From: Acidobacteria bacterium Ga0077522
GTDB lineage: Bacteria; Acidobacteriota; Vicinamibacteria; Vicinamibacterales; Vicinamibacteraceae
Direction: 5' to 3'
Assembly: GCA_001464065.1 (NCBI GenBank)
Contig: LNDN01000006.1
Location: forward strand, 1-36,505
Length of the DNA: 36,505 bases
Made by a program: the position numbers and the translations under genes. This document shows positions 6,156-7,768 of the stretch, one piece after another. Position 1 is the first letter of the stretch, and each line of letters starts with the position of its first letter. The notes beneath the pieces were generated by a model. The model was not told the DNA's origin. It made no database searches and saw nothing but the letters and a program-made list of their open reading frames with translations.

Positions 6156-6236
6156 GGGTAGGGCCCGTTCTCCGAACGGGCCGTCATCGACAGTGATGCC
6201 GATGCTGACGGCCGGCTCGGAGAGCCGGCCCTACCC
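6156..6236. repeat. Inverted pair of REP-like hairpins (BIME-like)
   Basis: Two palindromic units face each other between convergent genes. The outer arms GGGTAGGGCC (6156-6165) and GGCCCTACCC (6227-6236) are perfect reverse complements. The left unit folds as GGCCCGTT, loop CTCCG, AACGGGCC (6162-6182). The right folds as GGCCGGCT, loop CGGAG, AGCCGGCC (6210-6230). The GTAG head next to a GC-rich hairpin is the signature of REP elements mobilised by RAYT (TnpA-REP) transposases; assignment to that class is inference. It lies between the permease stop (6145) and the peroxiredoxin stop (6249) and may serve as a bidirectional terminator, although no T-run follows. Confidence 0.8.
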
Positions 6237-6248
6237 AGCCCTGACTCG

Positions 6249-6836
6249 CTACTTCTTCTTCACCCCGAGGTCGTCGAGGTTCTTGAGCATCACCTGTCCG
6301 GCGGTGGCCGTCGTCGGGTTCTTCTCGATGTGGCGGATGCGACCGTCGGGACCGATGAAGAAGGTCCAGCGTGCGGCGAACTGCTGTTCGGGCGGGCGGT
6401 CCAGGCGGATCACGCCGTAGGCCTTCGCGGTGGCCTTGGACGGGTCGGCGAGGATCGGGAAGTCCGCCTCGTGCATCTGCGCGAACTTGGTGTTGTCGTC
6501 GAGCGAATCGACGCTCGCCATGAAGTAGGCGATGTCGTAGGTCTTCAGAATCGGGCCGCTCTCACGGAGCGACTTGCATTCGGCCGTTCAACCACCGGTG
6601 AAGGCCTTGGGGAACCAGGCGAGCACCACGGTCTTGCCCTTGTACTCCGCCAGCGAGTGCGTCTTGCCGTCGGATCCGGGCAGCGAGAAGGCCGGCGCCA
6701 CGTCGCCCACCTTCAGGTCTGCCGAGTACTGCGCGGGCGCGGCGGGCGCCTGGGCAGGTGCAGGGGCCGGACCCTGGGCCGCCACCGTCGCCACGCCGAG
6801 GCTGGCGATGGCGCAGAACGTCAGGAGTCTGGTCAT
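6249..6836 (-). CDS. Peroxiredoxin-like thiol peroxidase, probable selenoprotein (in-frame TGA = Sec83)
   Basis: AhpC/TSA-family peroxidase, 195 residues if the TGA at 6588-6590 is read as selenocysteine. An N-terminal signal peptide (about 1-20, ending VAAQG) and an Ala/Pro linker show export. The thioredoxin fold starts near residue 41 with LKVGDVAPAFSLPGSDG. The active-site segment reads WFPKAFTGG-(TGA)-TAECKSL. In relatives the position of the TGA is the peroxidatic Cys, and here it is the only stop in an otherwise continuous frame. Cys87 four residues on could be a resolving cysteine. The frame continues with DYxAYF-like and FFIGPDGRIRH segments, then KKK-TAG. Conventional gene calling would give a truncated N-terminal fragment or an ORF starting at 6521. 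A SECIS-like hairpin lies just after the TGA. Alternative: a Cys codon (TGC or TGT) mutated or mis-sequenced to TGA. ATG 6836 fits the signal peptide. selA, selB, selC and selD are not in this window. Confidence 0.8.
6554..6585 (-). promoter_or_regulatory. Candidate bacterial SECIS element
   Basis: On the minus strand, two bases after the TGA, GGCCG (6585-6581) can pair with CGGCC (6558-6554). Inside it, CTC (or GCTC) pairs with GAG (or GAGC) around a five-base loop CGTGA that starts about 21 bases after the TGA and has G as its second base. Known bacterial SECIS hairpins lie inside the coding sequence right after the UGA, with a small G-containing apical loop some 16-37 bases downstream, so spacing and loop fit. 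The 5' side has an 11-base bulge, which weakens the model. SelB binding is inferred, not shown. Confidence 0.55.
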
Positions 6837-6877
6837 GCGCCCGATGGTAGCACCGCGGTGCCCGGAGCCGGGTGCCA

Positions 6878-7768
6878 TCAGTCGGCCTTCGCCTTCGCCG
6901 TCTTCCCCAGCTGCTCGACGATACGTGTGGCTTCCTCGACGGCGCGAGCGAGCACCGAGCGGATCTTGCCGTCCTCGAGCATCAGGACGCCGCCGATGGT
7001 GCAGCCCGCCGGCGTCGTCACGTCGTCGCGCAGCGAGGCGGGATGCCGGCCGGTCTCGAGGACCATGCGGGCGGAGCCGAGCATGGTCTGCGCCACGAGC
7101 TGCAGCGCGAGGTCGCGCGGCAGGCCCACGCGCACGCCGGCATCGGCCATCGCTTCCATCATCAGGTACATGTAGGCGGGGCCACTGCCGCTCAGCGCGG
7201 TGACGGCATTGCAGTACGCCTCGTCGACGATGCGGCACTGGCCCACCGACGCGAAGATGCGCTGCGCGAGGTCCAGATGCGCGGTCGAGGCGTGCGTGCC
7301 GCCGGCCACGACGGTCATGCCGGCGCCGACCACGCAGGGGGTGTTCGGCATCGCGCGCACCCAGGGATTGGACAGATCGAGCAGCTGCTCGAGTCGCGAG
7401 GTGGTGACGCCGGCGAGAATCGAGACGAGCAACGTGTCCCGACGCACGCCGTTGCGCGCCAGGGCGTCGACAACGTCGGCGGCCTGTTTCGGCTTGACGC
7501 AGATCAGGACGACATCGGTGTCGAGCAGGCGGCGCTCGAGCCCCCCCTCCTGGGCGAGACCGAGCCCCAGGTCGGTGGCCGCGCCGGGGAAGCACGGGAT
7601 GCCGAGCTCCGACGTCACCTCGTCACAGCTGGCCTGAGAGTGCGCAGAGGCCCAGGCCTGCGATGGCTGGAGCAACTGCGCGTCGAACAAGCCGCGGAGG
7701 AGCGTGCGGCCCATGACACCGGCGCCGATGACGCCGAGCTGACGGTCGGGAGGAAGCAGCGAACTCAT
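6878..7768 (-). CDS. proC: Pyrroline-5-carboxylate reductase
   Basis: Last enzyme of proline synthesis: reduces 1-pyrroline-5-carboxylate with NAD(P)H in the cytoplasm. The 296-residue product begins MSSLLPPDRQ and then has the Rossmann nucleotide-binding motif GVIGAGVMGRTLL (about residues 12-24). VLICVKPKQAADV (about 90) is the second dinucleotide-contact strand. RAMPNTPCVVGAG (about 133) and the C-terminal signature ALSGSGPAYMYLMMEAMADAGVRVGL (two adjoining pieces, about 190-215), with TPAGCTIGG near 255, are diagnostic of ProC. Insertions relative to E. coli ProC occur around residues 35-75. The start is the ATG at 7766-7768, giving the normal ProC N-terminus; the frame remains open far upstream but that part has no homology. 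The peroxiredoxin gene lies 41 bases downstream on the same strand. Confidence 0.93.
   Translation of the reverse strand: MSSLLPPDRQLGVIGAGVMGRTLLRGLFDAQLLQPSQAWASAHSQASCDEVTSELGIPCFPGAATDLGLGLAQEGGLERRLLDTDVVLICVKPKQAADVVDALARNGVRRDTLLVSILAGVTTSRLEQLLDLSNPWVRAMPNTPCVVGAGMTVVAGGTHASTAHLDLAQRIFASVGQCRIVDEAYCNAVTALSGSGPAYMYLMMEAMADAGVRVGLPRDLALQLVAQTMLGSARMVLETGRHPASLRDDVTTPAGCTIGGVLMLEDGKIRSVLARAVEEATRIVEQLGKTAKAKAD

Follow-up and report, generated by a model that had tools for sequence, protein, structure and literature searches.

A putatively exported acidobacterial peroxiredoxin with an in-frame UGA predicted to encode selenocysteine at its peroxidatic position

Does a reading frame interrupted by a single TGA in this acidobacterial contig encode one selenocysteine-containing peroxiredoxin, or is it a broken gene? 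The DNA analyzed (the window, 36,505 nucleotides) is contig C6 of a 5.44 Mb genome that is assembled in 429 contigs and rated 100% complete. On its minus strand, a frame of 195 residues runs from an ATG at 6836 to a TAG at 6249 (6249..6836) when TGA is read as selenocysteine (Sec, U), and its sole internal stop is the TGA at 6590-6588 (6588..6590, minus), which is codon 83. A sequence-only reading had placed a probable exported selenoprotein peroxiredoxin at 6249-6836 with one in-frame TGA at residue 83; both the coordinates and the residue are correct, and the strand, which it did not give, is the minus strand. In its main points that reading is supported. Translation table 11 breaks the frame into two ORFs, one of which begins at a GTG far upstream and stops at the TGA (6588-7595), while the other has 90 residues (6249-6521). 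We assign a probability of about 0.9 to the reading that the gene encodes an exported peroxiredoxin whose UGA is decoded as selenocysteine. Its basis, all on the side of sequence, is a UGA at the peroxidatic position, a covarying hairpin, a full Sec gene set in the genome, homologues with only Sec or Cys at this residue and a predicted peroxiredoxin fold.

The TGA falls within the active-site stretch PKAFTGG-U-TAEC, and its earlier placement at the peroxidatic position of FTGG-x-TAEC thus reads as claimed. With U replaced by C, the Pfam domain AhpC-TSA matched residues 43-170 (3.7e-30). Because this match spans the TGA, both flanks form one domain and a frameshift is unneeded, as had been proposed. 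The genome holds 13 matches to this family (PF00578), and the window gene is the only one with a TGA. The ATG at 6836 agrees with the start of four same-genus homologues (MSRLL...); an alternative in-frame ATG lies 14 codons upstream. A pyrroline-5-carboxylate reductase-like gene (6878..7693, minus; Pfam P5CR_dimer, 2.5e-39; start chosen by us) is located 41 nt upstream on the same strand, and from this arrangement co-transcription of the two genes is possible. The promoter and terminator scan gave nothing informative, and no Rfam family matched the window at gathering scores.

Just past the 3' end of the peroxiredoxin gene lies an inverted pair of GTAG-headed palindromes (GTAGGGCCSGNTCTCCGANCSGGCC), at 6158-6182 on the plus strand and 6210-6234 on the minus strand. 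This palindrome has 153 exact copies (71 + 82) in the genome, against none of the backward control pattern, and among the matches listed many stand in facing pairs. These elements resemble a REP/REPIN family. Two Y1-transposase-like matches (PF01797), a possible RAYT, are also found in this genome.

Homologues of the close family were collected from 60 genomes, namely the source genome and 59 relatives. Among 66 matches of at least 118 bits, 64 frames were counted and smaller fragments excluded; outside the 64 are the match in G044, read separately as a Cys form, and a contig-edge match (G022:C60) flagged with one TGA. At the position of residue 83, 47 of the 64 frames have TGA and the other 17 TGC, that is, only U or C, which agrees with the expectation set out beforehand for an alignment of homologues. 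The Sec form occurs in 42 of the 60 genomes sampled from the same order. A second collection, of named genomes, yielded 82 frames from 80 loci with TGA in 72, TGC in eight and TGT in two. The proportion 72/82 is not a rate, since 544 loci were scored for similarity to an alignment made up mostly of Sec forms and the 80 that scored best were kept; this collection also overlaps with the set of 60. According to the depositors' titles, which are not reliable labels, 69 of the 80 loci come from Acidobacteria or a group within them and 11 carry other names. In a draw of 149 genomes from the phylum, 41 gave a match at E 1e-20 or better, and close-family TGA forms, one frame each, were seen in nine "same phylum" genomes (G064, G077, G079, G102, G117, G145, G157, G170, and G186).

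A quick unrooted tree, with 56 Sec and 18 Cys rows (74 in all), requires four changes of the Sec/Cys label, compared with 16.2 in shuffles; Sec is thus inherited over long spans. On the same tree, 14 Cys rows form one group (support 88) amid Sec rows. At one locus (L038, G008:C174), a Cys and a Sec form stand in tandem on one strand, with the Cys copy upstream.

These data bear on three other explanations, a sequencing error at the TGA, a pseudogene, or two separate genes, as the split into 6588-7595 and 6249-6521 under table 11 could suggest. The same TGA is present in 47 close-family frames, including those of the single-contig assemblies G001 and G002 (the latter, of the same genus, has 6,468,984 bases), and this speaks against an error of sequencing. 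In same-genus gene pairs, changes past the TGA fall most often on third codon positions: over the 110 codons after the TGA, L001 and L024 differ at 11 first, 11 second, and 36 third positions, and the most distant same-genus pair at 18, 17, and 35, respectively. The 42 codons upstream of the TGA in one pair show 5, 3, and 5 changes, too few to be clear. Given the recurrent TGA, the third-position changes and the covarying hairpin described below, the sequencing error and pseudogene readings were rejected, and we regard this whole group of explanations as extremely improbable.

The preferred reading, decoding of UGA as selenocysteine, calls for a recoding signal, and a SECIS-like hairpin (6555..6573, minus) was located by covariation, folding and the published bSECIS limits. 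Its 7-bp stem pairs positions +18 to +24 with +30 to +36 from the TGA, and its loop, CGUGA (6562-6566) in the window gene, lies 21 nt past the Sec codon. Covariation was counted on 41 of the 47 TGA forms, excluding six with a shifted or variant stem, five of which (L051, L052, L056, L061, and L064) have a 7-bp stem and an 8-base loop with the 3' side shifted and one (L057) a 7-bp stem and a 6-base loop. In the stem, 97.9% of the cells are paired (90.2 in shuffles), both sides have changed in 19 cells (2.7), and covariation scores 0.244 (0.094); for all three measures none of 500 shuffles was as high and the true register exceeded all six slides, with the caveat that related sequences can exceed shuffles without structure. 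Two further counts are weaker. Pairs with a double change number three, as against four in the +2 slide, and 14 of 500 shuffles are as high; additional pair types number nine, the same as in the +3 slide, and 42 of 500 shuffles are as high. RNAalifold, unaided, returned the identical seven pairs, and the pair 18-36 is seen as GC, CG, AU, GU, and UA with one mispair. These compensatory changes lend support to the selenoprotein reading first made from the window.

The bSECIS limits, taken from the available part of the source (PMC13188914) and coded by us for unbroken stems, are a loop of 3-9 bases, a stem of 4-16 bp, a G in the first two loop positions, a spacing of 16-37 and an MFE of at most -7.5. 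The window hairpin falls within them (loop CGUGA, 7 bp, spacing 21, -9.6 kcal/mol), as do 108 of 752 TGA triplets in the window. Across homologues, 45 of 53 TGA forms (47 close family and six of a second family) lie within the limits and eight fail, compared with 2 of 18 Cys forms. These sets include seven low-scoring homologues excluded from the 64, six of which have TGA at residue 83, a proportion that is not a sample because the seven were selected for a flagged TGA. In the named set, by listing, 65 of 72 TGA forms and one of ten Cys forms fall within the limits. The longest stem differs between the 47 Sec and 17 Cys forms (p 6e-9), and folding energy separates them weakly (p 0.04). Taken by itself, the window hairpin does not exceed shuffles in stability (z -0.73 and -0.31), so that the case for a SECIS element rests on covariation and on the contrast between Sec and Cys forms.

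The second, more distant TGA-peroxiredoxin family mentioned above (L087-L092, in G017, G018, G038, G045, G033, and G023) has the TGA at the same place within AFSPG-U-TxE[M/L], without a Cys at +4. Most of its members have signal-like N-termini by eye, and the hairpin is a different, short one of the GUCUCG-GUAU-CGAGAC type. Matches elsewhere in the phylum with 41-46% identity that carry a TGA flag may belong to this family.

The sequence-only reading had tied its fate to the sel genes, and selA, selB, selD and tRNA-Sec are all present in the source genome. The tRNA-Sec scores 67.1 bits and is called tRNA-SeC, anticodon tca, by ARAGORN, which gave SeC for 20 of the 20 best tRNA-Sec loci. SelA scores 501 bits; SelB scores 312 bits over positions 2-341 of 581, and SelB-wing_2 and wing_3 are found in the same 640-residue stretch. 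SelD (330.7 bits; L098, G000:C86:10360-11277) has an in-frame TGA in CAG-U-ASK and is predicted to be a selenoprotein itself; its TGA is followed by a candidate hairpin with loop GGUGC and spacing 32, among other stems.

Since searches for tRNA-Sec and SelB also match other tRNAs and elongation factors in control genomes, cut-offs were set across the 60 genomes, at 56 bits for tRNA-Sec and at the family value for selB. By hand tally, selB is present in 41 of the 42 genomes with a TGA peroxiredoxin and in 9 of the 18 others (Fisher p 2.8e-5), and tRNA-Sec in 36 of 42 and 9 of 18, respectively (Fisher p 0.007). Six TGA genomes are without a strong tRNA-Sec (G017, G022, G028, G040, G047, and G049), and one (G037, rated 97% complete) has a tRNA-Sec match of 61.7 bits and no selB over the cut-off. 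As selB is found in G054, of the same genus, its absence from G037 is possibly an assembly gap. Such missing genes are likely gaps in general, considering that most of the exception genomes are fragmented and that the tRNA search applies stricter filters. The ten genomes without selB comprise six that have Cys forms only (G015, G032, G044, G056, G057, and G059), three without a close-family match (G010, G012, and G027) and G037 with its TGA form.

No formate dehydrogenase over the cut-off was found in the source genome, which has three weak matches. A limited search (PF00578, formate dehydrogenase and SelD) gave SelD and the window peroxiredoxin as its only selenoprotein genes, and upkeep of the latter could be a main reason for these bacteria to retain the Sec machinery.

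Reassignment of UGA to another amino acid, or chance readthrough, has nothing in its favor apart from the open frame. Several family members end in TGA (e.g., L027, L032, and L040), which means that UGA still stops; in addition, residue 83 aligns with Cys only, and the tRNA with a tca anticodon is a tRNA-SeC by ARAGORN. Reassignment was rejected on these grounds, and this pair of explanations is hardly credible next to selenocysteine insertion.

Conservation of the active site was read from two alignments, A2 (49 of the 64 frames) and A3 (the window protein and 50 of the 82 frames). P76 and T80 of the active-site motif PxxxTxxU (P76-U83; 6588..6611, minus) are at least 90% conserved, and residue 83 is C or U in all rows of both alignments. 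Arg156 (6369..6371, minus), which is the same in every row of A2 (49) and A3 (51), is a candidate for the active-site Arg of peroxiredoxins. Cys87 (6576..6578, minus), the candidate resolving residue in a UxxxC motif, is kept in 64 of 64 close-family and 82 of 82 named-set frames and is invariant in A2 and A3. From residue 41 on, 62 of the 64 members have no Cys or Sec besides residues 83 and 87, so Cys87 is the sole internal resolver available there, and we infer that it is the resolver. An AlphaFold2 model built from the window protein and 50 homologues (pLDDT 91.3, pTM 0.81) places residue 83 near the start of a helix (81-92) and Cys87 one turn on. The closest PDB folds found by Foldseek are Bcp1 of Sulfolobus (E 1e-15), AhpE and PrxQ.

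Two close-family paralogues, L082 (G040) and L084 (G026), which are in neither alignment, retain both the TGA and the +4 Cys, and their hairpin still folds. Their motifs are odd (ANTKT-U-TREC and VFAKL-U-VIDC), L084 being without T80, and their function may have changed.

If Sec is inserted, the enzyme might nevertheless not be mainly a peroxidase, with UxxxC serving a thiol-disulfide oxidoreductase, a chaperone or another redox role in the envelope. Such a role would suit a motif that differs from the CxxxxC of PrxQ, together with matches to the ResA model that are weak (40.8 bits, cut-off 170) and recur in all 51 A3 members. PxxxTxxU and Arg156 are kept, however, and the top sequence and fold matches are peroxiredoxins, which makes a non-peroxidase function unlikely.

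Export of the peroxiredoxin is probable from its N-terminus. Residues 1-20 (6777..6836, minus) form a putative signal peptide by sequence and a hydropathy heuristic, with cleavage between VAA and Q proposed by eye. By the same heuristic, applied to rule-chosen start codons, 62 of the 64 members have a hydrophobic N-terminus, followed in 61 by a small-x-small site. The model has low confidence at residues 1-20, which is what a free signal would give. The protein might instead stay in the cytoplasm, or be anchored in the membrane by an uncleaved N-terminus; one homologue (L067) is apparently without a signal or hydrophobic N-terminus, and the argument for export leans on a heuristic. Against the breadth of the pattern in the family and the low confidence at the N-terminus, we consider either location quite unlikely. 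The gene had earlier been read as coding for an exported version of a kind that is less usual. A signal-like N-terminus is indeed suggested by the sequence; however, FdnG of E. coli is an exported selenoprotein with a Tat signal peptide, according to the consulted portion of PMC3636253, and export is therefore less unusual than had been suggested.

Taking the exported selenoprotein peroxiredoxin as the working reading, SelB with Sec-tRNA would recognize the hairpin and insert Sec83, and the N-terminal signal would export the protein. Once in the envelope, the selenolate of Sec83 would reduce peroxide and be converted to a selenenic acid, with which Cys87, one helical turn on, would form a selenenylsulfide to be recycled by a thiol reductant. 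The gene neighborhoods of 80 loci name no such reductant: a conserved redox partner was not found in them, and the commonest neighbor cluster is present in 15 of 80. If selenium or SelB were lacking, translation would end in a fragment of 82 residues. In its widest form, the proposal is of an uncharacterized, extracytoplasmic peroxiredoxin branch in which Sec is peroxidatic and a Cys one turn away (UxxxC) is resolving, and which is present in the majority of the order's genomes sampled here and also in further families of the phylum; we advance this only tentatively and think it rather doubtful in full.

For Acidobacteria, a phylum described in the part of PMC8852301 at hand as abundant in soils and little characterized, this locus adds a selenoprotein family with a well-supported SECIS element and a putative envelope role. 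Ten NCBIfam models match the window protein at E 0.001 or better and none reaches its own cut-off, so that annotation may well take such genes for truncated or broken ones. Sec and Cys orthologues coexist, in tandem at L038, and thus allow the benefit of Sec in a peroxidase of this type to be tested directly.

Selenoproteins of this general kind have been described before. In the available sections of the respective sources, Sec-peroxiredoxins are frequent in marine metagenomes (PMC2398784, PMC1088965), a 2006 survey counted 12 of them and gave three families with four selenoproteins for Acidobacteria (PMC1794560), and deep-Sep was tested on one acidobacterium with three known genes (PMC12013277). 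A Sec-peroxiredoxin of Vicinamibacteria or Luteitalea, or an exported one, was not found in the titles and abstract beginnings of the papers listed from an open-licence library, and may be in print elsewhere.

The window protein has the common features of both groups to which it would belong. As in peroxiredoxins, there is an AhpC-TSA domain and fold with PxxxT/SxxC and a conserved Arg (P76, T80, C/U83, and R156); as in bacterial selenoproteins, a UGA stands at a redox position where homologues have Cys, with a bSECIS element and selA, selB, selC, and selD. A Sec peroxiredoxin named "Prx TxxU" (PF00578/COG1225) is listed as experimentally verified in a review (PMC13188914), and it shares with the window protein the AhpC-TSA domain, Sec at the peroxidatic TxxU position and a UGA with a SECIS hairpin. 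TxxU Sec-peroxiredoxins being already known, the window family is no new class, although the description of "Prx TxxU" in the accessible portion of that source names no exported member, UxxxC motif or Acidobacteria. Selenoproteins of the peroxiredoxin-like thiol:disulfide oxidoreductase type have the same Pfam domain (PF00578) and Sec, but with UxxC or UxxU (the same portion of PMC13188914) in place of TxxU with UxxxC.

As to the individual classes, the sequence-only reading had offered PrxU as the type for the window protein. PrxU (NCBIfam NF040737), presumably the Sec peroxiredoxin of the Eubacterium acidaminophilum type, has the domain in common with it, but the score of 45.7 bits is far below the cut-off of 270, and the protein is not PrxU-type. 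PrxQ/BCP (thioredoxin-dependent thiol peroxidase, NF006960) is its best NCBIfam match and a fold neighbor, at 78.9 bits against a cut-off of 140. The peroxidatic/resolving pair of PrxQ is CXXXXC (PMC6590489, in the part available), as in a paralogue from the source genome (L002, CTTEAC), whereas the window family has UxxxC or CxxxC. PKAFTGGU fits the AhpE-group active site, given as PxAF(T/S)xxC in the available text of PMC5302317, and AhpE of Mycobacterium tuberculosis and archaeal Bcp1 are the closest solved folds to the model; AhpE, however, is titled a 1-Cys peroxiredoxin, while the second Cys is invariant in the window family, which in addition has Sec and a signal-like N-terminus. The UxxxC spacing is matched by no peroxiredoxin class in those portions of the descriptions that were compared. 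By its sequences, this is a conserved and putatively exported family of Sec-peroxiredoxins that carries a UxxxC motif and belongs neither to PrxU nor to canonical PrxQ; it is set apart from them by PrxU and PrxQ scores below cut-off, by UxxxC instead of CxxxxC and by apparent export.
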